This document shows, one piece after another, positions 35,140 to 53,865 of a stretch of DNA of 59,685 nt. Numbering within the stretch: position 1 is the stretch's first letter; every line of letters starts with the position of its first letter. The translations under genes were made by a program, and so were the position numbers. This DNA comes from a virus: the IMG/VR virus record IMGVR_UViG_3300008110_000055, positions 1 through 59,685 of that record. One strand, written 5' to 3'. Under the pieces are notes generated by a model, which was not told the origin of the DNA, made no database searches, and saw nothing but the letters and a program-made list of their open reading frames with translations.

Positions 35140-35311
35140 AGTGTAGTCCTAGTGAGTTAAGTACCTTGAGACCTTCTTCGTATTCCTCTAGAGTGTAGTA
35201 CGGCCCGCCACAACACTCTGGGTCACTGCACGAATTGTCGCTTAGATACAGCAGCATATCCTCGGTAGCATAACGCAGCTTATTCAGCTCGTCAGTTGTT
35301 AGCGTTCGCAT
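35126..35311 (-). CDS. Hypothetical protein (61 aa)
   Basis: A small acidic protein with a Cys pair (DNSCSDPECCGGPYYTLEEY) that could bind a metal. It overlaps both neighbours by 14-20 nt. No family recognised. Confidence 0.5.
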   Translation of the reverse strand: MRTLTTDELNKLRYATEDMLLYLSDNSCSDPECCGGPYYTLEEYEEGLKVLNSLGLHYERV

Positions 35312-35771
35312 TCAGCACCTTATGCGGTAGATCGTTAAGATCTGGATAATTGCGAGTAAAGTGGAGGATCATGGTAGTGTTGCAGAGAATGTGACCGATG
35401 TGAGACAGACCTGATTCGGCGTCGTTTTCCTGCTCTTCTACCCACAGAGCGTGTGCGTGTCGCAGAGCGCAAGCTACAGGGATAGACCACGCCATGCCCT
35501 TAGCCCAGTTCCACGCGGCGTACTTACGCTTGCCATACTCGAACACGTGGGCGCAGTCTGCTACGTGCTCCCGCATCATCATGTTGTGCCAGTGTGTCAG
35601 AGCGGAATCATCGCCTGCAAACATTAGATCATGAAGAGCGTCAGCTAGATCTAGGTGAGTCCTGCCTTTTACATAAAGCAGCCTGGGCGGAATCAAGCTA
35701 AGGTCCGGCTTACCGTCGTTAAAGCGGGCACCACTCCCTCGCTCAGTACTATTAACGTTTCCAATTGGCAT
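35292..35771 (-). CDS. dATP/dGTP diphosphohydrolase-like protein (DUF5664/MazZ type, 159 aa)
   Basis: It matches the phage family annotated as dATP/dGTP pyrophosphohydrolase: N-terminal GARFNDGKPDLSLIPPRLL, then VFEYGKRKYAAWNWAKGM, ALRHAHALWVEEQENDAESG and LSHIGHILCNTTMILHF. The last two carry the E/D/H residues expected for metal-dependent hydrolysis. In 2-aminoadenine phages a member of this group cooperates with PurZ. No PurZ is seen here, so a role in adjusting the dNTP pool is more likely. Confidence 0.78.
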   Translation of the reverse strand: MPIGNVNSTERGSGARFNDGKPDLSLIPPRLLYVKGRTHLDLADALHDLMFAGDDSALTHWHNMMMREHVADCAHVFEYGKRKYAAWNWAKGMAWSIPVACALRHAHALWVEEQENDAESGLSHIGHILCNTTMILHFTRNYPDLNDLPHKVLNANANN

Positions 35772-36422: not shown

Positions 36423-39400
36423 TTATAGGATATCGCATACCCCCGCCGTACAAGCGAGGTTCTGTACACCAGTAGTGGTATCTTCGCGCTCGAAGTCCGA
36501 GAGCTTAGACCAGTCAATGTTCTTCGGGAAAGCTTCGGCAGCCTTTACATAAGTAAGCTCGTCGATCTCTTGGTAGGGAGCTTGCTTGTAAGTACCGCCA
36601 TCGTAGGGAAGGAACGAGATACCGCTCAGGTCGTTGAAGTTCTTAAACACCCAAGCTCCTACGTCAACCCACTCGTGTTCCTCTACGTTGATCGTGACAC
36701 TGACCTGATGCTCTGCCCAGTGCTTGTTGTAGATCATCCACAGCTCTAGGTGATCCAGCGCCTTCACATCATCACGCGTCTTGCAGACGTCGGGAGCCTT
36801 GATCGGGAAGTAGAACACTGTAGTACTGTCAGGCTTCATCACGCAAGGCTCGTTAGGAATACCCATAGCCTTCATAAAGTCCGTCATCGGATCCTTGTTG
36901 TCACCACGCACAGAGCGTAGATAGAACTTAGAGTGACGAGGGTGGATACCAGAAGCGGCGTTGGTTAGCTGACTAACTGTTCCACTTGGCTTAATTGTTG
37001 ACGTAGCAGCGGAGCGATTGATGCCTAGGGCGTCAGCTAGCTCTGCGTTAACGACGTTGACGTGCGCCTTAAGCTGCTCAAGAAACTCAGCCAGCTTAGC
37101 CTTACCCATGTCACCGTTAGTCAGACTGTTGTCGTAGATGCCAGTAAGGCTTACTCCAAGTAGTCGCTCTTCCTCAGCGTTCTTTTTCCAGATCGGACGT
37201 ACGTATCGAAAGTTGGTGAATGTAGACTGGATCGTACCAAGGATCGCAGCGATGCTAGCCTTGCGCAGAAGAGAGCTTTCAGTATCATCAGCACGTACCA
37301 CTACCTCACTCAGTTATGTTAATCCCAATTCGCTAGATCGGGACGATAGGTTTTAAGTACCCACTGCGAGAACTTAACAAGTTCGTCAACGCTGGCTGCA
37401 CCTTTCATAGCGTTAGCACATTGACTTAGAACTTGGATGTTATCCTTAGTATAACCACGGTCATTATCAATTCTATCTAAGCTGGGGCTATTCTTATAAG
37501 CTCCCGATTTGCCTGAGTTAGCATTGATAGTAATGCCTGTAGCTGGACATACATCAGGAATCATAATGTCGTCTGCGGTCAGATCAAACTCAATGCCCTT
37601 GTATTTGGCACGCTGTTTAGCTCTCTGCCACATCTTCCATTGAGGAGTCATGCTTTTTACTCGACTGCAATTGCACTTCTTACAAAGTACCATCTTGCTA
37701 GTCTTCTCGAAGATAACTCCGCAGTTAGTACATTCTCTGTGCGTATCTGATTCCAGATAGCCCATGAGATTCTTCTTGAGTTCCATAGGTGTCCTCCTCT
37801 AGAGGTAAGGTTATGTAATCTTGTGACATTACATAGACACCAATAGTTCCCTAAAACCTATACCCTTATGTTTCCATAAGGCTCAGACTATATCATCACC
37901 CTCTTGCGAGGGGCTGGGCGCTTCCACTCCGCTTGGAGTGTACGAGCATAAGCTCTAGTCGTTGAACCTTCCCCGCCTAGCGGGGCTTGGCTGCTGATTG
38001 TCCTCGTCACTACACGTTAGGAGTTTCCAGCAATTCACCCAGTTTTACAACCTCTATGATTAAAGGTTACACAAGCCCGCAGAACGCAAGGCGATTTCCG
38101 CACCTTTATTGTTACTCGTCATTTAGACGGGGTTGGACGTTTGCGCCAACCTCCTCGCATTCCTGCGAGGAACAGACTATATCATCACCCTCAGACAGAG
38201 GGGCCAATCGTCCGAGCTTGTAGAGAAAAGACTTCTTAACGTAAGGAAGAATGATAGACTCAAACTTATCATTGTCCTTAGTACGAAGAGAAAGGTACCA
38301 GTATTTGTTTTGGCGATTAACGTTGAACTCAAGGCCCAGCTTCTCACGGATAGCCTGCTTAAGCAGCAGGTTATCTCCGTAGCTAAATCCTTTAGTGTTC
38401 AGCGTATACTTCGGAGAAGCGTTGCAACGCTTATCAACAAAACGAGATCCATCGGCCATGAAGATAATAGCAAGAGCTTCAGCATCAAGCATAGTCAGCA
38501 TGTGAGGATCGATCACCTTCTTACCATCAATATAAACTCTCTCGTGAATCTTGGTCAGCAGCGGATGCACGCGACTTTCTAGGCGCACTTGCGGAGCGCG
38601 ATTAAATCCGTCCGTGTTGTAGTCCTTACGCTGATAGATACGAGTACCGCAGTTTATAGCAGCGAGACTGTCTGCACACATAGTCACATAATCAAGATTA
38701 GCTTCGCGCATGTTCATAATGAACCTAGCGTTGTCGCACTTGCCAGTGATGTACAGCCCGCCGTCAAACGTACTAAAGTAATAGAGACGCTTGATGATAT
38801 CTTTCTTGTTGCTCATAGTCGTTACACCTCCCATATCGGGTTGGCACGGTATTGTCTGGTCTAGACTTCCACCGTTTTTAGATTGGTTATTCAGCGCAGT
38901 TTACACTGCGAGGCCGCTAGCATTTAACGGGTTAGTGCCTACGATCTTATCGGCGTCACGCTTACCGATACGCTCCGTCTTATCTCGGATACCCTTACGA
39001 TAGTAGATCCCGCGCTCGCCACTCTTACTGTTGTAAAGAGATGTCCACTCTTCTAGGAACTGACCGATGGTCGGTACGTCCTCGTACACGGCGGAGTTGT
39101 TAGCCAGAGCAAACTCCGGGTTACGCTCCCACCACATACCAGCCTTGGCGTCACGTACACGAGGAGAGCTTAGGTCAGACAGAGAGATCAGCGCCGAACG
39201 GCGTACGCCGCCAACCACTACAATCTCACCAATCTTGCAGACTAGGCCATGTACCTCTAGATCAGTGAGCTTGCGGCCAGCAGCACCACGGAAAGTACGA
39301 ATGGTATAATTGAATAGATCCACCAGCGGGTCAGGACCAGACGCGCGTCCTCCAAATACCTTAAGCCTCGCTCCCTTGGGCCGGACTTTGGATACATCGA

Positions 39401-39914
39401 AACGAGGCAGCTTGCCAGCATAGAGCATAGCAATAAGCTCGCGGTAAGCAGAGGCCCAGCCAATCCTGCTATCGCCAACCACGATAGTAGAGTCTGTTTC
39501 ATGGAAAGACTCTGCTACGTCAGGTAGCTGATTTACGTAGCGGGTTTCGCAGGAGAACCCTACCCCAGTACCACACGTCAGGATGTACAGGATCTCGTCG
39601 AATGCTCGGGGATGATCCATCGCCACGAACGAGCAGTTGTACAGCGCCATCTCGTCCCGCTTCGCCGCTTCGCCTGCTGTCATCAGTGCTCTCATCGAGG
39701 GCATGACTTCTAGGTTCAGGATCGCTGAGCGAATCTCGGACTTGTCGATACTGAGCTGCGGCACTTTGTCCAGCACCGGAGCTACGATGTTCGTCATGTA
39801 GCGGTCCACTGTCTCCGGCCACGTCTCTCGTCGGTTCTGTTCCGGAAGCCAACGGCTGTACCGGCTTAGGGCAATGAATGTCTGGAAGTCTGTTGGTAGG
39901 TAATTCGTCGTCAT
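36423..39914 (-). CDS. nrdJ: Class II ribonucleotide reductase in three exons (638 aa)
   Basis: Adenosylcobalamin-type (RTPR-like) reductase making dNTPs. Exons read as 39914-38927, 38103-38063 and 37310-36423 (minus strand). Joined they give 1917 nt with no stop before the end. The junctions restore GTNP-CAEIALRSAGLCNL-SEVVVR, a sequence expected in this family. Other motifs: MALYNCSFVAMD (substrate-site Cys), STFTNFRYVRPIW, EEERLLGVSLTGI, and the C-terminal Cys pair ACTAGVC. The start ATG follows AAGGAAACTG. The two intervening segments are group I introns carrying homing endonuclease genes, so functional enzyme requires RNA splicing. Confidence 0.9.
37311..38062 (-). ncRNA. Group I intron 2 in nrdJ
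   Basis: A 752-nt intron between exons 2 and 3. P1 pairs exon AACCUU with intron GAGGUU, giving a U-G pair at the 5' splice site, and the intron ends with G before AGTGAGG. The core shows phage group IA-type phrases, in order: TTGCTGGAAACTCC, CAATCAGCAGCCAAG, GTTCAACGACTAGA, GATATAGTC, then a P9-like hairpin CCTTATG-GAAA-CATAAGG with a GNRA loop. An HNH endonuclease gene lies downstream of P9. Confidence 0.9.
37319..37786 (-). CDS. HNH homing endonuclease in nrdJ intron 2 (155 aa)
   Basis: Presumed to promote intron transfer by cutting intronless nrdJ. N-terminal zinc-finger-like Cys pairs (CTNCGVIF, CKKCNCS) are followed by an HNH-type core: CPATGITIN, SLDRIDNDRGYTKDNIQVLSQ with the Asp-Arg-Asp pattern and Asn motif of this group, and a C-terminal ANAMKGAASVDEL. 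The ATG has GAGGAGG upstream. The ORF ends 8 nt before the 3' splice site, downstream of the ribozyme core. Confidence 0.85.
   Translation of the reverse strand: MELKKNLMGYLESDTHRECTNCGVIFEKTSKMVLCKKCNCSRVKSMTPQWKMWQRAKQRAKYKGIEFDLTADDIMIPDVCPATGITINANSGKSGAYKNSPSLDRIDNDRGYTKDNIQVLSQCANAMKGAASVDELVKFSQWVLKTYRPDLANWD
38104..38926 (-). ncRNA. Group I intron 1 in nrdJ
   Basis: An 823-nt intron between exons 1 and 2. P1 pairs exon CCGU with GCGG a few bases inside the intron, placing a U-G pair at the 5' splice site. The last intron base is G (ATAAAG before GTGCGG). The core phrase GGTGATGATATAGTCTG is shared exactly with intron 2, and a P9-like hairpin CCTCGCA-GGAA-TGCGAGG with a GNRA loop follows. 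It carries a LAGLIDADG endonuclease ORF whose 3' end overlaps the core. Confidence 0.88.
38112..38816 (-). CDS. LAGLIDADG homing endonuclease in nrdJ intron 1 (234 aa)
   Basis: Predicted intron-homing nuclease. The motif AEALAIIFMADGSR is a LAGLIDADG-type helix with catalytic Asp. Only one clear dodecapeptide is seen, with a weaker first copy possible at KRLYYFSTFDGGL. The start at 38816 (MSNKKD) follows GGGAGGTG. Codons for the last 30 residues (GDDIVCSSQECEE...) are at the same time the P7/P9 core of the ribozyme. The stop is 8 nt before the 3' splice site. Confidence 0.82.
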   Translation of the reverse strand: MSNKKDIIKRLYYFSTFDGGLYITGKCDNARFIMNMREANLDYVTMCADSLAAINCGTRIYQRKDYNTDGFNRAPQVRLESRVHPLLTKIHERVYIDGKKVIDPHMLTMLDAEALAIIFMADGSRFVDKRCNASPKYTLNTKGFSYGDNLLLKQAIREKLGLEFNVNRQNKYWYLSLRTKDNDKFESIILPYVKKSFLYKLGRLAPLSEGDDIVCSSQECEEVGANVQPRLNDE

Positions 39915-44754: not shown

Positions 44755-44875
44755 ACTTCACCGCCGTCCGCTGCAGGCCGCTCTCGATGATAGCGACTGC
44801 CTTCTCGAACGTGGTCTCGGCGTCGAGCTTCTCGGCGAGGTAGGCGTAGAGGTCCGCCTTGTACTCGTCGCTCAC
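44747..44875 (-). CDS. Hypothetical small protein (42 aa)
   Basis: A GTG start overlapping the upstream stop (GTGA) reads MSDEYKADLYAYLAEKLDAE..., a charged amphipathic helix, and ends in the ATGCCTGA overlap with the next gene. An SD-like GGAGGC lies upstream inside the previous gene. It fits the chained overlaps of this module. No family recognised. Confidence 0.55.
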   Translation of the reverse strand: MSDEYKADLYAYLAEKLDAETTFEKAVAIIESGLQRTAVKYA

Positions 44876-45246
44876 TGCTTGCCTCCAATGGCCGCGAGGG
44901 CGTCGCGTGCTTTTGAGATTCGCTCACTGCGCACGCCCCAGCCGGAAGATTCTGGGTGCGTCCGATTGACGTACTCAAGGGAGTCGATGCAGTCCTCCAA
45001 CGCCTCCACCACCCCGGCCTGCGCGTTCAGCGCGGCGGCGATGCGCTGGTTCCATTTCCGCACGGCGTCCTCGCGGGTCTTACCAGCAATCTCCATCACC
45101 GACGACGGCTGTCCTTCCTCGCGCACGCACCAATGACGAACGCGGGCGCTGATGACTTGCAGGCGCAGCCCAGTCCAGTGCGTCGATTCATTGACTCGTG
45201 TTTCGCCAGCACCGCAGAACGGGCACGGCTCAAGATGCTCACTCAC
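44872..45246 (-). CDS. Lar-like zinc-binding protein (124 aa)
   Basis: The start at GTG 45246 (MSEHLEPCPFCGAG) overlaps the upstream stop. The pattern EPCPFCGAGETRV ... RVRHWCVREEG ... AGKTREDAVRKWNQR is that of the phage restriction-alleviation (Lar) family: a CPxCG zinc half-site, a second Cys, and the AVxxWNxR ending. In Rac prophage, Lar relieves type I restriction. Family-level inference only; many such proteins have no tested role. Confidence 0.7.
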   Translation of the reverse strand: MSEHLEPCPFCGAGETRVNESTHWTGLRLQVISARVRHWCVREEGQPSSVMEIAGKTREDAVRKWNQRIAAALNAQAGVVEALEDCIDSLEYVNRTHPESSGWGVRSERISKARDALAAIGGKQ

Positions 45247-45680
45247 TTGCCCACCCCCGTAGTCGGCGTAGCCGACGTTAGCGATGCGCGGATGCGCTGC
45301 CATGCGTCTTTCATCGTCGGCCCAGCCAGTCCAGACTGGCGCAAAAGCTCGTCAACAAACATCACATCCTCCGCGCTGGCCGCAGGTGTAACCTGCTCGG
45401 TAGCTACGCTACGCGGCTGCGGGGCGGCGTAGAGTGGTGCCCAGCCTTCGTCGGCATCGGGGCACTCGGATTGCCACCGAACCTCGGTTTCATCCGTTCC
45501 AATGGCGCGGCCATCGTCGTCGCAGATAAACCGAGAAAGCGACCACGCCACCGGCTCGGCCTGCGTCAGCCCAAGCTCGGCTAGCACGGCGTCGGCTATC
45601 GTGCAGGGATGGGCGCGCGGAAAATCGGAGTACGCGGCTTCAATCGCCCGCGCTACGCGCTCTCGAAGATCAGCGGTCAT
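45243..45680 (-). CDS. Hypothetical protein with PLYAAPQP motif (145 aa)
   Basis: Helical N-terminus (RERVARAIEAAYSDFPRAHP), then EPVAWSLSRFICDDDG and GWAPLYAAPQP, a phrase I know from many proteobacterial phage hypothetical proteins. GC-rich codons match the ligase/Lar block, supporting one imported unit. Overlaps the gene below by GTGA. Confidence 0.6.
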   Translation of the reverse strand: MTADLRERVARAIEAAYSDFPRAHPCTIADAVLAELGLTQAEPVAWSLSRFICDDDGRAIGTDETEVRWQSECPDADEGWAPLYAAPQPRSVATEQVTPAASAEDVMFVDELLRQSGLAGPTMKDAWQRIRASLTSATPTTGVGK

Positions 45681-46145: not shown

Positions 46146-47387
46146 CTAATTCTGACTATCGGCTGAACCGCTAGGGCTAATCAGCCGGCTCAGTTGCTTG
46201 TTGATTCGGACGACTACTGGATCGTGCGAGTCGTCCTCACCGCCGATCTTGTTCTTCGGGAAGCTGATGCCTCGCTCGTTCAGTCCGAGCATCGGCTCGT
46301 CAGCTCCGATACCCATCAGCACGTCACACTGCGCTTGCACGCCAGTGTTACTGAAGTCCACGTCACCCATCTCAAGGTACATCTTGCCGGAAGCGGACTC
46401 ACCCGCCTGCGTCACGCTGATCATGGCTACGTTGGTACGCTTGCCGATGTTGCGCAGTTCAGTAGCCTGCTTCTCCAGAGCGATGACCTTGTTGCTCTCG
46501 TTCACGTTCAGGTTACGTAGCTGGTTGACGATGCAGACGTTAGGCTGGAACCGTTCGATCAACTCCTCGACTTGCTGCGGAGAACCTGGAGTTAGTTCGG
46601 CTACCGTGATCTGCTCCATGCCGTAGCTGTCCGCTAGGCCCTGAGCCCGCGCAGGATCGCTCAGGATCTCCTTGCGGTTCATGCCCGCTAGGTTGGATAC
46701 GTACCGCATCTGGACGTCGCTAGGACGGTCCTCGTTCTCTACGTGCAGTACCTTGAATCCTTGGCGAGCAAAGCCTGCACCCATGTTGATGATCGTAGCC
46801 GACTTGCCCATCTCGGGACGGGCGAACACGATGACGTGGTGTCCCGGTAGTAGCCCTCCGCCGAGGCGCTGGTTAACTACACGGGGGAATACCTGCATCA
46901 GCATCCCGCCAGAGTTACGCTCCATCACCAGACTAGCTACGTCGATCTTCTCGATAACCGTAGCACCCTGAGCGATAAGCTCGTCGAACGTGTTGATCTT
47001 GCTGATGTTCTGGTACTCGTCAATCAGCTCAAGCAGCTTGCCGTCTTTGTTGACAGCGGCGATAGCGATCTGCTGCTCGATCTCTCGACGGCGTACCTCG
47101 ATGATCGTAGTCTCTACGTTCAGCGTGCTGACGTCCGCAGCCTTGGCCTCATCGACTAGAGCCTTGAAGCGTTCGATGTGCTTGGGGTTAGGGAACGTAG
47201 CTCCGATCAGCTCGTAGATCAGGCTAACGTCCACGGCCTGAGCGTGGGGATCCCGCTGGTAGAACTCAGCCACCAGCTTCATCAAGTGCTGGAACTCACG
47301 GCTGTGTTCCTTAAGCGTGATAAGCCCGTGTACTTTCTCGAAGCTGGAACGATTGTTAAGTACTATTGCTAGTAGCTGAGTCTCCAT
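46146..47387 (-). CDS. DnaB-like replicative helicase (413 aa)
   Basis: Hexameric helicase for fork unwinding. The RecA-type core shows Walker A IVFARPEMGKSATIINMG (about 205-222), HVENEDRP and a later PNVCIVNQLRNL that occupies the Walker B place, then VAMISVTQAGESA. The N-terminal third is helical. It is encoded separately from the primase, unlike T7 gp4. SD GGGAG precedes the ATG, inside a CTTAC-N4-GTAAA palindrome region. Confidence 0.88.
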   Translation of the reverse strand: METQLLAIVLNNRSSFEKVHGLITLKEHSREFQHLMKLVAEFYQRDPHAQAVDVSLIYELIGATFPNPKHIERFKALVDEAKAADVSTLNVETTIIEVRRREIEQQIAIAAVNKDGKLLELIDEYQNISKINTFDELIAQGATVIEKIDVASLVMERNSGGMLMQVFPRVVNQRLGGGLLPGHHVIVFARPEMGKSATIINMGAGFARQGFKVLHVENEDRPSDVQMRYVSNLAGMNRKEILSDPARAQGLADSYGMEQITVAELTPGSPQQVEELIERFQPNVCIVNQLRNLNVNESNKVIALEKQATELRNIGKRTNVAMISVTQAGESASGKMYLEMGDVDFSNTGVQAQCDVLMGIGADEPMLGLNERGISFPKNKIGGEDDSHDPVVVRINKQLSRLISPSGSADSQN

Positions 47388-47397
47388 CCTATCTCCC

Positions 47398-48198
47398 TTA
47401 CGCTGGTAAACTTTCTATGAACTCGGTGAACTCTTCGTCGTCCATGTCCTTGACATCCTTCCTTCCGATCCTTATACTCAGAGGAAGGAGGTGTGAATAC
47501 TTGATTGCCTGACGCACGGCCTTGTCCTTAGCATCAGGATCGAGACTAAGAATAGCACGGCATCCAAGAGATTGCAACTCTTCAGCCATCAACTGAGTGA
47601 AGTCTCCGCCCAAGATAGCAGCAGCGTTGACACCGCTAGACGCCAAGCGAATCGCAGACGGAGCATCCTCAGTAACCACGACACGCTGGTGGGCGATGGA
47701 TGTGTCTGCTTTGTAGTACGCCAGCGCATTAGCGTTGTCGTTCTTATACGTGACTGCCTTCTTGAATCCGTCCTTCTTCTCGACCATGCGTCCGATGAAT
47801 CCACCGAACCGTCCGTCGTAAGTGTTGATCGGAATCCAGAGCCTGCCGTTACCATCGAGATCAGTGTACCACTCGATGCCAGCATCAGCACACATGCTAA
47901 CTGTCAGGTGAAACTTGGACAGGATACGAGGGTACATATCCTCAGGGATCTCGCTACGATTCACACGCGGTACAGGTTTGCGCCGTGACTTTACATCTGT
48001 AAAGCTTTTGCCGATGCAAGGAACGATGCCCTGAATACCACAGCTAGCACGATGACACTTGTAACCTAGGAAGTTGTTGTCTACTTGGAAGATGTTGAAC
48101 GTCGCCTCTCGTGTAGCCCCGCCTTCGCAGACAGGGCACACGTTAGCAGACGACGGGCCGATGCGGAGTACCTCCTCTTGCAGCCCGTTGTACTTCAT
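47398..48198 (-). CDS. DNA primase, zinc-ribbon plus TOPRIM (266 aa)
   Basis: Makes RNA primers. The N-terminal zinc ribbon is NVCPVCEGG ... YKCHRASCG (four Cys). The TOPRIM fold shows RVVVTEDAPSAIRLA (catalytic Glu) and AILSLDPDAKDKA (DxD). Length and split from the helicase are as in several phages that encode the two halves of a T7 gp4-like enzyme separately. The ATG overlaps the stop of the amidotransferase by one base. Confidence 0.88.
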   Translation of the reverse strand: MKYNGLQEEVLRIGPSSANVCPVCEGGATREATFNIFQVDNNFLGYKCHRASCGIQGIVPCIGKSFTDVKSRRKPVPRVNRSEIPEDMYPRILSKFHLTVSMCADAGIEWYTDLDGNGRLWIPINTYDGRFGGFIGRMVEKKDGFKKAVTYKNDNANALAYYKADTSIAHQRVVVTEDAPSAIRLASSGVNAAAILGGDFTQLMAEELQSLGCRAILSLDPDAKDKAVRQAIKYSHLLPLSIRIGRKDVKDMDDEEFTEFIESLPA

Positions 48199-49463
48199 CA
48201 GACTGCGGCCCGCTCGATCGTAGACTCTACAGGTCGGATGGTCGTGGTACCAATCACGGCGTGCATAGCCTTCTCCGGAATGTGAGTCTTGGCATTAGCG
48301 ACGTGGATGTTGGTGCATCCGATGATATCGCCAGACCAGATAGCCTCGGAATCCCGATAGAGTTTGTTGAACGTATCCTCGTCTCGGCCACAGTAGATGA
48401 CAAGCTTGCCCTCGTACATCAGCTTCTGAACCGAAGGAGACTTGATCTCCGTCTCAGTATCGGAAGGCCAGAAGGTACCGAACACAGTACGGGTATTCTT
48501 GTCTACCTCGCTGACAAAGAACTCTACCTTGGTACCACGAACAGCAGCGATGGTAGCAGCCAGCGTGTCATCCGCTGTAGCCACACTATCGTCAAAAGGG
48601 ACTACGTTGCTGGCAGCAGGCGCGGTGCTAGTCGTGATGAGGTTGTACTTCTGCTGGAGTTTGGCAAGATCGTCGAACGATCCGTCGTAGAGTGACGTGC
48701 TGGTAAACGAACGGCTCCACTCGATCTCCTTCTTAGAGTACGTGACCTTAGTCTCCTTGAGGTTGAGGATGTACAGAGTGTCAGCCTGCGCAGCCATGAC
48801 GTTGTTCGTGGTCTTGAGCTTGTTGCGCTCCGCCAGCCAGTGCAGCATGCCCGGCTCGCTGGCGAACAAACAGTACGTACCATCGTCCGACATGAGAGCG
48901 TGCATCGGACGGCGTCCGTTGTTGGCAACGTACATCTTGGACGGGTCGTCGTCGAAGAAGAACATTACAGAGTAAGCACCCGACAGACTGCAGAGGATCT
49001 CAGCGATCTGTGTATCACGCGCCTCGTCGTCCAGAGCAGCCGCCTCTACCAGCTTACCGAACAGCCACTCAGAGTCGGACACGTAGTCCTTGCCGAGCGT
49101 GTAACCAGACAGCGTGCCGTTATGGACACCCACGATGGAGACGTCGTACTCCTTGTTCCACAGACGGAACGGATGAGCTGCATCGACAGTGACTTCGCCC
49201 ACGGTAGCCGCACGATTGTGCCCGATAACCATGTAGGAGTGATCGACTTCGTCGAGGATAGCCTTAGTGGCACGGCTGGTAAGGAACGAAGCCGGGGCCA
49301 GCACATCCTTGTGCATCATCACGTGACTGTTGCTAGTCATGACAGCGAGACCGCAGCTATCTTCACCACGCACAGCTCCGGCGATCAGGGCATCCGATAC
49401 AAACTTATTGAGATCCTTGACCGGAGTGGGCGAGACATTGACAAGTCCGAAGATACCACACAT
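48198..49463 (-). CDS. Class II glutamine amidotransferase (GATase-fold, 421 aa)
   Basis: Begins MCGIFGLV, so Cys2 becomes the N-terminal nucleophile after Met removal. Other Ntn-type motifs are RGEDSCGLAVM, MVIGHNRAATVGEV, VHNGTLSGY and DSEWLF. It should release ammonia from glutamine or act as a related amide hydrolase/transferase. The C-terminal half (about 240-421) is unlike known synthase partners and may give the specificity. It stands at the downstream end of the amidoligase/ATP-grasp operon. Confidence 0.87.
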   Translation of the reverse strand: MCGIFGLVNVSPTPVKDLNKFVSDALIAGAVRGEDSCGLAVMTSNSHVMMHKDVLAPASFLTSRATKAILDEVDHSYMVIGHNRAATVGEVTVDAAHPFRLWNKEYDVSIVGVHNGTLSGYTLGKDYVSDSEWLFGKLVEAAALDDEARDTQIAEILCSLSGAYSVMFFFDDDPSKMYVANNGRRPMHALMSDDGTYCLFASEPGMLHWLAERNKLKTTNNVMAAQADTLYILNLKETKVTYSKKEIEWSRSFTSTSLYDGSFDDLAKLQQKYNLITTSTAPAASNVVPFDDSVATADDTLAATIAAVRGTKVEFFVSEVDKNTRTVFGTFWPSDTETEIKSPSVQKLMYEGKLVIYCGRDEDTFNKLYRDSEAIWSGDIIGCTNIHVANAKTHIPEKAMHAVIGTTTIRPVESTIERAAV

Positions 49464-49488
49464 ATGTCAGTTCCTTATAGCTTAGGGT

Positions 49489-50451
49489 TCAATAGAATTG
49501 GCGCGCCACGGTGACGGAATGATCCGACGCTTCGTCCGAATCGCCCTGGTGGCCATGCGTTGCTGCATCGACCTCGGTGCTATCCTCGAAGGCGTCATCG
49601 AACATAAGACCGCCGAGCATCACGAGCACATCGTCGCGGTGACGCATGTCGTCTTCGTCGCTTACAGAAGTAAGATTCAAGAACTCCGCATGTGCAGGCA
49701 GGTACCGAGTGATGAACTCCCGGATAGTAGCGCAGTCGCTCAAGAGCTCACGCACGTCAGCGCCAGACAACGACACCTTCTTCTGCTCAAGGCACATGTT
49801 CACCAGACCATACACTCCCTCTCGGCTAAGCCCACCAAAGTAGCGATACTCGATGGTGCCATACTTAGCAAGGGCAGTGATGTTAAAGCCGAGATAACGG
49901 TGTCCACCGACGAGCTGCTGAACAGCGCTATCGCACGGACGGTTGGTGACGTTAGTAGTCAGCAGACGGCTAGCCGCGAGCGACACAGCGTAGCAGTTAG
50001 CTTCGCGATGGGTGCCTGCAGTACCTACCACATACGGCTCCACGATAGCGGCAAGGGCCAGCGTGCGGGCCACCTGATCAGACGTGGTATCCGAGTAGTT
50101 GATGTGGACGTGAGTGGAAGTACGGACAGAATCTTCCAGCCCGTTGGCTGCCTTGATCTCGAACATCGCATCGATAGCAGTGCAGGCAGCCTCACCAAAC
50201 AAGGGCTGAGAGAACACCAGCTCGATGCCATTGCGCAGGCTGCCGTCGCCGTGAGGCGTGACAAGCGCACGATTGATCAGCGAGTTACTGCCCCAGTAAC
50301 GCAGACGATCCCCGCGAATGTTCATGTCCGGCTGCTCAAGCTCCAGCTCAACGCCTACATATTCAGTAGGAAGGGCCAGTTGAGCCGAGCCGCGCTGCTC
50401 GATACCGACGCGGCGAGTAACACCGAACATATCATGAATAGTCACAGGCAT
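49489..50451 (-). CDS. Amidoligase-fold (glutamine-synthetase-like) protein 1 (320 aa)
   Basis: Predicted ATP-dependent amide ligase of the phage/bacterial amidoligase family. Motifs match this family: VGVELELE (about 31-38, metal/ATP Glu), PHGDGSLRNGIELVF (about 64-78), THVHINYSD (about 115-123), TIEYRYFGG (about 204-212) and REGVYGLVNM. A Lys- or Arg-rich second half follows. Its product would be an amide bond between an amine and a carboxyl group, but substrates are unknown. It overlaps the unknown 242-aa gene by 10 nt. Confidence 0.85.
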   Translation of the reverse strand: MPVTIHDMFGVTRRVGIEQRGSAQLALPTEYVGVELELEQPDMNIRGDRLRYWGSNSLINRALVTPHGDGSLRNGIELVFSQPLFGEAACTAIDAMFEIKAANGLEDSVRTSTHVHINYSDTTSDQVARTLALAAIVEPYVVGTAGTHREANCYAVSLAASRLLTTNVTNRPCDSAVQQLVGGHRYLGFNITALAKYGTIEYRYFGGLSREGVYGLVNMCLEQKKVSLSGADVRELLSDCATIREFITRYLPAHAEFLNLTSVSDEDDMRHRDDVLVMLGGLMFDDAFEDSTEVDAATHGHQGDSDEASDHSVTVARQFY

Positions 50452-51170
50452 GGCACCACCTTAGGAAGAGTACGAGAAACAGTGGACTGAGTACGGCTAT
50501 CGATAAGACGATTGGATCGGGTATCGACTTTGTAGGTACCGTCGTCCTGACGAATGACCTTGAACATACCGTTACACATGCTGTAATGGAACCATACCTC
50601 AGTGCCGACGCGGAACAGGAGCATGGTCGGGGAGATGGCCAGCGTCGTAGTGTAGCTAGAGTTAAAGTCTGTCAGCGTGGCAACAGCCTGCTCGAAGCTG
50701 ACGTACATGCCACCAGTAAAGGCGGAATGAAGGACACGGAGAATACGGTAGCTGTCACTGGTCCAGCTACTGCCCACGTGAGGGCCGTCAGTGTGGGCAC
50801 CACCGACCCGCACCGAGCGCTCGCCGTAGCCACGAACGTAGCCACCCACCTTACGCTGTAAGAAGTAGCGACCAGTAAGCGTGCCGTCCTCCTCGCAGAT
50901 GTTGACGAAGCCGGAACGAACGATCGGCAAGAGATTGTCAGGATCGAACACAGCACGGAGCTGGTTAACTCCGAGACGAAACTCGCGCCCGATCAGATCG
51001 CTACCGCTGCTCTGGATGATCTTGCTGGCAGTGCAGGCAAGTCCTTCCTCTCGTCGGTAGAACGCACGCAGCATGATCACGGAGTCGTTGAACCGCATAA
51101 AGCAGTTGCCCAACGATCGCTGGAGATCATCGACATTCAGCACGTCGAAGGTGTGCTTCTTGATTTCCAT
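50442..51170 (-). CDS. Unknown partner gene of the amidoligase operon (242 aa)
   Basis: I do not recognise this protein. It has regularly spaced strand-like segments (VGGYVRGYGERSVRVGGAHT; AFTGGMYVSFEQAVATL; TEVWFHYSMCNGMFKVIRQ), no membrane helix and no nucleotide-binding motif. It sits between the two amidoligases and overlaps amidoligase 1, so it could be a substrate carrier, scaffold or third catalytic subunit of the same pathway. Confidence 0.7.
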   Translation of the reverse strand: MEIKKHTFDVLNVDDLQRSLGNCFMRFNDSVIMLRAFYRREEGLACTASKIIQSSGSDLIGREFRLGVNQLRAVFDPDNLLPIVRSGFVNICEEDGTLTGRYFLQRKVGGYVRGYGERSVRVGGAHTDGPHVGSSWTSDSYRILRVLHSAFTGGMYVSFEQAVATLTDFNSSYTTTLAISPTMLLFRVGTEVWFHYSMCNGMFKVIRQDDGTYKVDTRSNRLIDSRTQSTVSRTLPKVVPCL

Positions 51171-51173
51171 GTG

Positions 51174-51443
51174 TCACATCTCTGAGGTGGTATACTTGGG
51201 GAAGTTAGCTGGCTTTGGCTTAACTCCAGCCAGCTCGGACGTGTTGCCCCGAGCCATGACTTCTTTGTTCTCGGAGTCCGTGATGATAATGGCACTACAG
51301 AAGGAATACTTCCGAAAGCCTACGTCTTGCCGGACCTCGCGCTCTGCGTCTAGATCATTAGCAGCCGCTACCTTACCGCTGTAAAACTTACCGTGGTACT
51401 TGAGCCGGTAGTAGTACTGCTTATAGGAGATTGAACTGACCAA
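51174..51443 (-). CDS. Small unknown protein between ATP-grasp and 242-aa gene (89 aa)
   Basis: A TTG start at 51443 is preferred because AAGGAG lies seven bases upstream, inside the end of the ATP-grasp gene. Longer in-frame starts have no site. Sequence features: YYYRLKYHGKFYSGKVAA and an acid/basic C-terminal part ending KPANFPKYTTSEM. Its small size and basic Tyr/Lys-rich content make it a candidate acceptor or carrier peptide for the ligases. That is speculation. Confidence 0.6.
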   Translation of the reverse strand: MVSSISYKQYYYRLKYHGKFYSGKVAAANDLDAEREVRQDVGFRKYSFCSAIIITDSENKEVMARGNTSELAGVKPKPANFPKYTTSEM

Positions 51444-52170
51444 CGTAGAACTCCTTTGTTGAGGGAGCAGACAGCGCAGGAGCCGTGTTAACTTCGAGAA
51501 CATAGAGCCTGTCCTTCTTACTTACGATCAGATCTACTGCACCGAAGTCCAGTCCGCAGTTACGCACTGCGCGCTGAGCCATGTGAACCATGTCAGTAGT
51601 GACCGGGTCCACGTTGTCGGAACAGTACACCCAGCCGTGATGATAGCTGCGGATAAGGGCCGAGTAGTCCTCCTCGCTAGCGCCGTTACGCTTGCGCTTC
51701 TGCTGCACGAAGAAGTTATCCGACCACGTGTTAACGTGGATACGGTACTCAGCTTTCTTACGGATGTAAGCAGTGTACAGCTTAGCATCAGGCAGATCAT
51801 CAGGAGTACGGCACACTACGATGCCGTCTCCCGAATGGCTGGTCAGCTTGGTGCGAGCGAAGACGATGCGTCCCTCCTTCTCACGCAGCCATGCCGCTGC
51901 TTCCTCCTTGTCCAGCCAGTACGGAGGCCGGTCTTCGGCGTTGCCGGTACGAATGAAGAACTCTCGCTTGTCCGTAGCAAGGTGCGTGTCGATGTTGAGG
52001 ATCTTATCCGAGTAAGTAACCGGACCGCAGTTACCCCAGAAGATTACCCGTTCGTACTTGCGGATAACCCGGTCAAGCCGGGACAGGGACACCCGTCGGC
52101 ACGACGGCAGACTGCGACGCAACACTGCGGCGCTGGCGCTGGGGCGAGGACAGACGATTGCAAACTTCAT
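51421..52170 (-). CDS. ATP-grasp ligase (249 aa)
   Basis: ATP-grasp family enzyme expected to activate a carboxylate as acyl phosphate and join it to an amine. The start at 52170 (MKFAIVCPRPSA) has GGAGAA upstream; the longer ORF to 52260 is rejected. Family residues: EYRIHVNTWSDNFFVQQKR (Lys/Arg), GLDFGAVDLIVSKKDRLYVL and LEVNTAPALSAPSTKEFYV (metal-binding Glu/Asn, TAPAL loop). It overlaps amidoligase 2 by 98 nt. Its partners are the two amidoligases. Confidence 0.85.
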   Translation of the reverse strand: MKFAIVCPRPSASAAVLRRSLPSCRRVSLSRLDRVIRKYERVIFWGNCGPVTYSDKILNIDTHLATDKREFFIRTGNAEDRPPYWLDKEEAAAWLREKEGRIVFARTKLTSHSGDGIVVCRTPDDLPDAKLYTAYIRKKAEYRIHVNTWSDNFFVQQKRKRNGASEEDYSALIRSYHHGWVYCSDNVDPVTTDMVHMAQRAVRNCGLDFGAVDLIVSKKDRLYVLEVNTAPALSAPSTKEFYVGQFNLL

Positions 52171-52990
52171 TGATGGGTTCTCCACAGATACGAATGTACT
52201 CGGCTGCGCTGGCGTAGTTGTTGAAGCGGATGTTGCCGGCCCACGCGTGAGCATGGTCATACAAGTTCATGACCACTTGCCGTTCGCTAGTCTCCGGCTG
52301 CTGAGCAAGCCACCGTCCAAACTCAGTATACTTAGTAGCTCCTTCGATCGCAAAGCTATAGATAAACTCACCTCGCGTCTGGCTCTCGATGCTGTCGATC
52401 CAGCTAGCCCAGTAGCGAGTGAACAGCATCTGAGCAACGAGCACCTTAGCATTGACGGTACCCTTGAACATGCGGAACTCGACACGGTTGTTGCGCAGAG
52501 CGATGCCGTGCCTACATGACTGCCTACCGAACGCATACCCGCCGTCACTATCCATATACCTGCAGCTCGCCATCGAGGCGAACGAGTTATAGCCGTAACG
52601 CCGTGCGATATGCCGCAAGAAGCCGGCGTTATGATCAGCGCCGCTGTAGAAAATAGCCCGCCGCCATGCCGGAGTTTTGTTGGCAGCATTCAGGTTGATG
52701 TGAAGACCGTATCGATCACCACCTTCTTCCATCTCCACACGAGAGAACAGAGTGGTAGCCATGCGGTAGATCTTACCGATGTCATCATACGCTCCGAACA
52801 CGAACTCTACACCGTTAGCTCCGAGAGAACCGTCGCGTTCAGCACGGATGCCACGCACCGTCTGAGCTTGGTTGAAAGAGAAACGATTGACGTTAACCTC
52901 AAGCTCGATGCCCAGACCGTAGCCGTTAGGGTCGAGACTACTGCCCCGGTAAAGTGGGCCGCGATAAGAGTGATACCCGTACTGACGCAT
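52073..52990 (-). CDS. Amidoligase-fold protein 2 (305 aa)
   Basis: Second member of the same family, similar in motif order to the protein at 49489 but diverged: LGIELEVN (about 27-34), ERDGSLGANGVEFVF (about 51-65), YGLHINLN (about 94-101), NNRVEFRMFKGT (about 171-182). The C-terminus (about 280-305) lacks conserved features and overlaps the ATP-grasp gene. Two paralogues with one ATP-grasp enzyme imply either two ligation steps or two substrates. Confidence 0.83.
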   Translation of the reverse strand: MRQYGYHSYRGPLYRGSSLDPNGYGLGIELEVNVNRFSFNQAQTVRGIRAERDGSLGANGVEFVFGAYDDIGKIYRMATTLFSRVEMEEGGDRYGLHINLNAANKTPAWRRAIFYSGADHNAGFLRHIARRYGYNSFASMASCRYMDSDGGYAFGRQSCRHGIALRNNRVEFRMFKGTVNAKVLVAQMLFTRYWASWIDSIESQTRGEFIYSFAIEGATKYTEFGRWLAQQPETSERQVVMNLYDHAHAWAGNIRFNNYASAAEYIRICGEPINEVCNRLSSPQRQRRSVASQSAVVPTGVPVPA

Positions 52991-53009
52991 GTTGTTAGCC
53001 TATGGTTAG

Positions 53010-53579
53010 TTACTTAGCGAGATTACCGTACATGGAGTAGTATCCACGGTACGATCCATTAGAGAACCAGCGGCCCTCGTGCCACTGACCGATGCTCTCG
53101 TTTACAATTGTAAGACTAGCATCCGGATGGATGATAGCGAACTTGTTGTAGCCGATAGCCTTTCCGATGACGAGCTTCTCGCGTTCGAGGATCTCCTTAG
53201 TCAGCAGGGTACCATACTTCTCGATGAACAACTGAGTGTCCGACTTGGTTGCATCGTACATGTCAGCACCACGAAGCACACCATTGTGTGCGAGCGCCGA
53301 TCCGTCCGGCAAACGGAACGGATGGGTACGTTCCTTATCAGTCAGGCCGTGGGTACGGATGCGGAAGTGGATGACGAACGGAGTACTGGCACCATGCTTA
53401 GCCATCAAAGACTTAAGCGAGCGCATGAATTCTTCCTTGGTCATGAACCCCTTGCGGATCTTGACCACACCGTTCTGCGCATAGGCGAATCCACCGCCGT
53501 CACCGTTCGAGTCCCAGCAATTGTTCAGTTCTTCTTCACTGATCGTCTTGCCTGCGGGTACAACTGCGATGATACACAT
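53010..53579 (-). CDS. Second class II amidotransferase/hydrolase (189 aa)
   Basis: Begins MCIIAVVPAG with Cys2 as N-terminal nucleophile. Motifs: NGDGGGFAYAQNG, FVIHFRIRTHGL, THPFRLPDGSALAHNGVL and KSDTQLFIE, as in class II amidotransferases; the family relation to the 421-aa protein is visible in the HFRIRTHG/IGHNRAAT and AHNGVL/VHNGTL segments. It is much shorter, a nearly pure Ntn domain, so it may be a free glutaminase or a peptidase. A palindrome (53580-53592) ends next to its ATG. Confidence 0.85.
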   Translation of the reverse strand: MCIIAVVPAGKTISEEELNNCWDSNGDGGGFAYAQNGVVKIRKGFMTKEEFMRSLKSLMAKHGASTPFVIHFRIRTHGLTDKERTHPFRLPDGSALAHNGVLRGADMYDATKSDTQLFIEKYGTLLTKEILEREKLVIGKAIGYNKFAIIHPDASLTIVNESIGQWHEGRWFSNGSYRGYYSMYGNLAK

Positions 53580-53592
53580 CTTACTCAGTAAC
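53580..53592 (-). promoter_or_regulatory. TTAC-N3-GTAA palindrome at amidotransferase start
   Basis: On the coding strand this reads GTTAC-TGA-GTAAG immediately followed by the ATG of the 189-aa amidotransferase. The upstream gene's stop (TGA) lies inside it. Confidence 0.7.
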
Positions 53593-53808
53593 CTCTAGCT
53601 TGCGATAGATAGTGTTGAGAGTCTCGAACTCCACGAGCTTCGTTACTTCATCGTCGTACTTGACACGCACGATAATGGAGGTAGTCACATCGTCCTCGTC
53701 ACCAAGTCGCGGATGACCCTTGACTCCGCTCAGTCGGGCGCGGATACCTTCACCAGCCACGTCGATGAATCCGCGAACCTTACTGAAGTAAACAACAGGC
53801 TTGCTCAT
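53581..53808 (-). CDS. Hypothetical protein upstream of amidotransferase (75 aa)
   Basis: Start ATG 53808 (MSKPVVYFSKVRG) with GGAG upstream is chosen. The protein has KGHPRLGDEDDVTTSIIVRV, a probable beta hairpin, and a charged C-terminus. It ends 1 nt before the amidotransferase start and lies just downstream of a sigma-70 promoter, so it probably leads the amidoligase operon. No family recognised. Confidence 0.6.
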   Translation of the reverse strand: MSKPVVYFSKVRGFIDVAGEGIRARLSGVKGHPRLGDEDDVTTSIIVRVKYDDEVTKLVEFETLNTIYRKLEVTE

Positions 53809-53836: not shown

Positions 53837-53865
53837 ATTATACGCTAGGCACTAGGCGTTGTCAA
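53837..53865 (-). promoter_or_regulatory. Sigma-70 promoter for the amidoligase operon
   Basis: Reading leftward: -35 TTGACA (53865-53860), 17-nt spacer, -10 TATAAT (53842-53837). Both hexamers are consensus. The first downstream gene starts at 53808, about 30 bases from the -10. The spacer and the 3' end of the upstream gene contain CGCCTAG/GCCTAGCG repeats. Confidence 0.9.

Follow-up and report, generated by a model that had tools for sequence, protein, structure and literature searches.

Does a phage that groups two amidoligases, an ATP-grasp ligase and two glutamine amidotransferases (GATases) in one run of genes encode an amide-ligation pathway of a new kind, or a form of one already known? 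We addressed this question for IMG/VR record IMGVR_UViG_3300008110_000055, a viral sequence of 59,685 bases that is taken here over its whole length and referred to as the window. A sequence-only reading had described seven minus-strand genes as the operon of a candidate amide-ligation pathway, and we recovered all seven open reading frames (ORFs) on that strand, in the order and at the positions described, with ends that overlap or lie no more than about 40 nt apart. Enzyme families, their residues and conserved neighbours speak for such a pathway, but it is not of a new kind. Comparison with other loci indicates that the cluster is very probably a rare variant of a known phage cassette built from amidoligase and ATP-grasp genes, and we consider it likely that this variant performs amide-ligation chemistry, whatever its target.

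A cassette with the same enzyme classes has been described in phages as a ‘peptidoglycan modification cassette’, thought to change the cell surface against superinfection (PMC5498523), and the same naming and enzyme classes recur in other phages (PMC11945000; PMC10580990). Earlier accounts place it in phiEco32, LUZ24, PaP3, tf, PA11 and RIO-1/PSA-HP1 (Iyer 2009; Hardies 2013; Duhaime 2017). Like these cassettes, the window combines an Amidoligase_2 ligase, a class-II GATase and an ATP-grasp ligase beside replication genes, with a partner slot right before the Amidoligase_2 gene. It differs from them in gene order and in its second amidoligase and small class-II GATase. Moreover, most relatives add a COOH.NH2 ligase (PF14395) and a gamma-glutamyl-cleaving enzyme, either Peptidase_C26 or GGACT, whereas all three were absent from a six-frame scan of the window.

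Enzyme families of the locus

The amidoligase AL320 (320 aa; 49489..50451, minus strand, as are all genes of the run) is of the main cassette type. It exceeds the Pfam cut-off for Amidoligase_2 (PF12224; 23.7 bits against 22), matches phrog_7469 (8e-34) and has every acidic, histidine and arginine residue that is invariant among 54 relatives. In a quick tree it clustered with the Amidoligase_2 proteins of phage StenR_269 and of the loci L007, L008 and L020, which are compared below (SH-aLRT 92).

The second amidoligase, AL305 (305 aa; 52073..52990), is more divergent and falls under all library cut-offs, including that of Pfam Amidoligase_2. Aligned with 54 phage Amidoligase_2 proteins by HHalign, it nevertheless matched with 97% probability (E 9e-11), with a score of 72 against a maximum of 24 in 60 shuffles, and BLASTP linked it to its L007 counterpart (1e-6). 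A protein search of phage records with AL305 found nothing, nor did a first alignment search that used the StenR_269 proteins. Membership of AL305 in the COOH.NH2 ligases (PF14395) was considered and rejected (HHalign only 0.1%), and neither AL305 nor AL320 matched a glutamine synthetase profile in Pfam or NCBIfam. In StenR_269 (L003:4102-4989) and L020 (4871-5890) another gene similar to AL305 lies upstream of the small GATase, which brings the amidoligase-like genes to three in each; these extra genes match Amidoligase_2 at about background by HHalign.

The long class-II GATase, GAT421 (421 aa; 48198..49463), matches GATase_4 (26.1 bits; cut-off 23) and the NCBIfam model PRK00331 (3.5e-17), and its nearest solved relative is glucosamine-6-phosphate synthase. 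Comparison with relatives showed that it retains the class-II catalytic residues, namely Cys2, the HPF and HNG motifs and the Asp. The small class-II GATase of the N-terminal nucleophile type, GAT189 (189 aa; 53010..53579), matches phrog_25883 (3e-11) and in the same kind of comparison retains Cys2, R73, HPF 86-88, HNG 98-100 and D114.

Between the two amidoligase genes lies a RimK-like ATP-grasp ligase (51421..52170) whose ORF is open from 52260 (279 aa). The protein probably starts at Met31 (52170, 249 aa), since its relatives begin there and a Shine-Dalgarno-like TGGAGAA precedes this ATG. It matches phrog_2599 (2e-51) and holds the invariant or nearly invariant residues K98, R136, E171, R173, K188, D243, E256 and N258. 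Its nearest solved relatives are ribosomal protein S6 glutamate ligases: it shares the ATP-grasp family and the C-terminal D...LEVN motif with RimK alpha-L-glutamate ligases (5zct, 4iwx), although it has diverged far from them (profile E 5e-8). A second, very divergent ATP-grasp gene was observed within the cassettes of three other loci (L049:5005-5880, L067:3071-3820 and L068:869-1588).

The enzyme classes named by the sequence-only reading are thus borne out, with the start of the ATP-grasp gene moved, and we regard the assignment of two Amidoligase_2-type ligases, two class-II GATases and one RimK-like ATP-grasp as almost certain from profiles and motifs. A loss of catalytic residues in all members is excluded: AL320, the ATP-grasp and both GATases appear intact, and AL305 keeps most of its motifs with several departures.

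A cassette in two forms

We used an alignment of six ATP-grasps as the query against IMG/VR, which returned at least 475 relatives, and examined the best 80 loci. With five loci from phage records and the window, 86 loci were compared, some of them cut short. An ATP-grasp gene was present in all 86, Amidoligase_2 in 79, a class-II GATase in 72 and the partner family described below in 55. COOH.NH2 ligase (49 loci), Peptidase_C26 (38) and GGACT (20) were less widespread, and their identities were confirmed by Pfam on representatives. Primase, helicase or polymerase genes lay alongside the cassette in 78 of the 80 loci whose sequence ran on for 4 kb or more past the ATP-grasp gene.

Two forms could be distinguished among the 57 loci in which the sequence before the ATP-grasp gene spans 5.5 kb or more. 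A COOH.NH2 ligase was found in 43, with Peptidase_C26 or GGACT in 42 of these 43, and the remaining 14 all had a small GATase (14/14); near-identical contigs occur among the 57, and the counts are therefore of non-independent events. By its gene content the window falls in a small group within the second form, which has the small GATase yet retains the partner slot and the long GATase. The order small GATase, amidoligase, ATP-grasp, one further ORF, partner, second amidoligase, long GATase and primase also occurs in StenR_269 (L003), in two IMG/VR lineages (L007/L008 and L020) and in L170, a contig from a metagenome-assembled genome; a GGACT gene is present in StenR_269 and L170. The ATP-grasps of the window, L003, L007, L008 and L020 formed one clade in a tree of 89 rows (support 100/96), from which L170, found later, is absent. 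Neighbours are hence conserved elsewhere, in other phages, and a lack of such conservation is excluded.

Stenotrophomonas phage StenR_269 (OR838459) was the nearest isolated relative found, its major capsid protein being 54.6% and its DNA polymerase 50.1% identical to those of the window. Its genes follow one another as in the window, starting with the small GATase and ending with primase and helicase; however, the cassette proteins are only 25-37% identical, and StenR_269 has the extra amidoligase-like gene and GGACT upstream. A nucleotide search with the cluster gave no match in phage records, and single-protein searches of IMG/VR with the 242-aa protein, AL305 and the ATP-grasp found nothing. 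The alignment-based search, applied to 84,980 bacterial and archaeal genomes, gave 14 loci, nine of them good matches (E <1e-10) and five distant ATP-grasps. Seven of the nine good genome-contig matches had other cassette genes, one had GGACT and replication genes, and one had neither. On these counts the ATP-grasp family is nearly confined to viral contigs.

The small GATase also has a distribution of its own. A search for it returned 145 relatives, and in 78 of the 80 loci kept the stretch also contained an Amidoligase_2-type gene, the two genes usually forming a pair with neither ATP-grasp nor partner nearby; the same GATase type occurs in the OM43 phages MEP401 and MEP402 and in mycobacteriophage Marvin. 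GAT189 is of this type, and AL305 shares with many of the paired amidoligases a Tyr-rich motif just before GxExE (YGYHSYRGP in AL305), which was defined after the sequences had been inspected and occurs in 21 of 37 amidoligases from small-GATase loci as compared to 2 of 46 from long-GATase loci. Many of the paired amidoligases have N-terminal extensions, which AL305 lacks. These patterns suggest that the locus contains two ligase-glutaminase pairs with separate origins, AL305 with GAT189 and AL320 with GAT421.

The 242-aa protein (50442..51170) had been taken to have no recognised family. Its gene in fact occupies, right before AL320, the slot of a conserved partner family (phrog_4877/11055), which we defined within the ATP-grasp loci by an iterated hidden Markov model (HMM) seeded with one phage protein, the window being omitted. 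The model unites 55 proteins, including phiEco32 phi32_85, PaP4 gp23 and the CVT22, Rhizobium phage and StenR_269 counterparts. In all 55 cases the gene is the labelled gene immediately preceding Amidoligase_2, and in 53 the ends, as called, overlap or almost touch. HHalign of the 242-aa protein against this family gave a score of 25.3 over 142 colinear columns; 100 shuffles reached no more than 21.0, and the best of 18 other window proteins scored 22.3, over 34 columns. AlphaFold modelled a family representative with pLDDT 89.9 and pTM 0.83, and the 242-aa protein with pLDDT 78.8, pTM 0.72 and much the same order of elements; the latter model was built with the family alignment and is support for kinship rather than independent proof of it. 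The two models led to the same viral proteins in a BFVD search, where the 242-aa model reached E <0.001 for eight. The 242-aa protein thus probably belongs to the partner family. The N-terminus of the family model weakly resembles SH3/KOW/Tudor barrels in the PDB (best Foldseek E 0.044, best Z 5.9), and no full-length match was found there, which does not in itself make the fold novel.

In loci that lack the partner (L016, L023, L036, L054, L066 and others), the amidoligases have long N-terminal extensions, some of them Cys-rich and zinc-ribbon-like by eye. We considered whether the partner is fused into these long amidoligases, which the sequences do not support: neither HMM nor HHalign detected partner-family similarity in the extensions above background.

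The remaining ORF of the run is Tyr/Lys-rich and encodes 109 aa (51174..51503), shortened to 89 aa if translation begins at the TTG at 51443 inside it. No family was found for it in Pfam, PHROGs or NCBIfam scans or in the sister loci, where the ORFs that take its place (89+181, 114, 250 and 147 aa) are unrelated. Judged by this comparison, it is not a conserved part of the cassette. The suggestion that it serves as a carrier is unlikely to hold, because unrelated ORFs fill its slot.

Taken together, the variant shows which parts of the cassette are exchangeable, namely the second ligase and the enzyme that handles glutamine or gamma-glutamyl groups for it. The constant parts are the ATP-grasp, Amidoligase_2 and a class-II GATase, joined in most cases by the partner gene right before Amidoligase_2. 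This division narrows the chemistry and yields a small set of proteins for testing. Neither the variant with its second amidoligase-GATase pair nor the partner family with a fold model was found described in searchable papers, which included few subscription ones, and this is not proof of absence.

Possible chemistry and targets

The gene content points to ammonia-dependent amidation by the two amidoligase-GATase pairs, which we hold to be somewhat more probable than not. Each GATase would hydrolyse glutamine and hand the ammonia to its own amidoligase, which would activate a substrate carboxylate with ATP and close the amide. The ATP-grasp may attach an amino acid by a further amide bond, presumably one like glutamate if RimK is the guide, and the partner protein may present the substrate to Amidoligase_2. 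AL305 and GAT189 occupy the slot held in most relatives by the COOH.NH2 ligase and a gamma-glutamyl-cleaving enzyme, and the subtype could thus arrive at a similar product through a different second ligation. As to the target, we tentatively favour envelope peptides, that is, peptidoglycan precursors. Host envelope peptides would then be changed early in infection, for example to exclude other phages, as published work predicts. In Pseudoalteromonas phage HP1 (PSA-HP1), the genes predicted to modify peptidoglycan switch on as soon as infection begins (PMC7082346), which supports an early host-directed role and does not bear on the target.

Several points weigh against this interpretation. The published peptidoglycan model uses parts of the set that the window lacks (COOH.NH2 ligase, Peptidase_C26, GGACT), and the literature searched reports no reaction or demonstrated product for any member of the cassette. 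No solved structure resembles Amidoligase_2 by sequence. AL305 has no stable place in the amidoligase tree, and it differs from the main Amidoligase_2 group at several invariant residues (E->N33, the third acidic residue, H->N99 and R->Y132). That GAT189 serves AL305 we infer from its slot and from pairing statistics, and the plain HMM comparison of the 242-aa protein with the partner family was not significant (E 3.1).

The same chemistry might instead act on another target: a host or phage protein could receive RimK-like amino-acid tags together with amidation, or a soluble amide-linked metabolite could be made to block a function of the host or of a defence system. This is possible, if rather unlikely in our view. 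The S6 glutamate ligases nearest to the ATP-grasp and the SH3/KOW/Tudor-like barrel of the partner, a fold that often binds peptides or nucleic acid, would suit such a role. So would the position of the cassette beside replication genes, with no cell-wall protein recognised in it, and its near-restriction to viral contigs (at least 475 relatives in IMG/VR against nine good genome-contig matches, eight of them with cassette or replication genes). However, most relatives add gamma-glutamyl-cleaving enzymes, which fit gamma-glutamyl peptides such as those of peptidoglycan, and the partner gave weak fold matches. A more specific version is doubtful, though worth stating: the product could be an amide-linked adduct of a kind not seen before, carried outside the envelope by a protein of host or phage or by a small anti-defence molecule, with the SH3-like partner as the substrate-recognition subunit of Amidoligase_2 and with bis-amidation in the subtype of the window.

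If AL305 were inactive and only a structural partner, a single amidation would result. The three replaced residues, among them the second His, would agree with this. Yet AL305 retains the ExE of the GxExE-type motif, DGSL, E62, H97 and ExR when compared with relatives. The H-x-N that stands in place of H-x-H is common to all AL305-equivalent proteins of the subtype loci, as would be expected of a specialised enzyme, and the L020 homologue exceeds the Pfam Amidoligase_2 cut-off. An inactive AL305 seems quite unlikely.

Phage 9g makes deoxyarchaeosine with the help of class-II GATase domains, and the cassette of the window and its relatives lies next to primase, helicase and polymerase genes. 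Both observations could indicate that amide-linked groups are placed on phage DNA. We consider this very improbable, as no family specific to DNA hypermodification was found among the window proteins scanned (part of the ORFs), and a homologue of adenylosuccinate synthetase, sought in the window for the 2-aminoadenine route, was absent.

Finally, the equivalent genes of StenR_269 have been labelled glutamine synthesis genes and tied to phage tRNA (PMC10747016), but a supply of glutamine or glutamate to the infected cell is hardly credible given the families found here, which call that label into question: the GATases are expected to consume glutamine by hydrolysis, not to produce it, the ligases resemble Amidoligase_2 and not glutamine synthetase, and a multi-enzyme cassette with a RimK-like ligase would be needless for this purpose.

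Transcription and other genes of the window

A promoter near 53.85 kb had been proposed to drive the seven genes separately. The predicted sigma-70-type promoter itself (TTGACA-17-TATAAT; 53837..53865, minus strand) stands, matching the consensus at 12 of 12 positions and being the only perfect match within 8.6 kb. Its start point would fall past the ATG at 53838, so that the first gene behind it would begin at about 53808, before GAT189. This gene (53581..53808, minus strand) matches phrog_4236 and would encode 75 aa from an internal ATG (MSKPVVYF).

At the other end, genes for a DNA primase (47398..48198) and a DnaB-type replicative helicase (46146..47387), both on the minus strand, adjoin the end of GAT421 almost gaplessly (48198, 47387). 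The compact arrangement described for the operon is confirmed, but the run is longer than seven genes, as it continues into this replication module. An 11/12 match to a sigma-70-type promoter lies on the plus strand within the primase gene (47450-47478), facing the opposite way to the operon. An end repeat of 12 to 400 bases was sought in the window and none was found; the record may be a fragment.

Further along the minus strand, an ORF at 44872-45303 resembles the restriction alleviation protein Lar (28.2 bits, just below the Pfam cut-off of 28.6), and 35292-35771 encodes a dATP/dGTP diphosphohydrolase (PF18909), an enzyme also present in phages whose nucleotide pools are altered. A ribonucleotide reductase (phrog_367) is present in two minus-strand pieces, of which 38901-39914 covers profile positions 33-387 and 36423-37301 positions 419-696 of 701. 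Between them lie ORFs for a LAGLIDADG endonuclease (38112-38834) and an endonuclease VII/HNH-like protein (37319-37786). From this layout, the split reductase is read as a gene that contains one or more introns or has been broken by mobile endonucleases.

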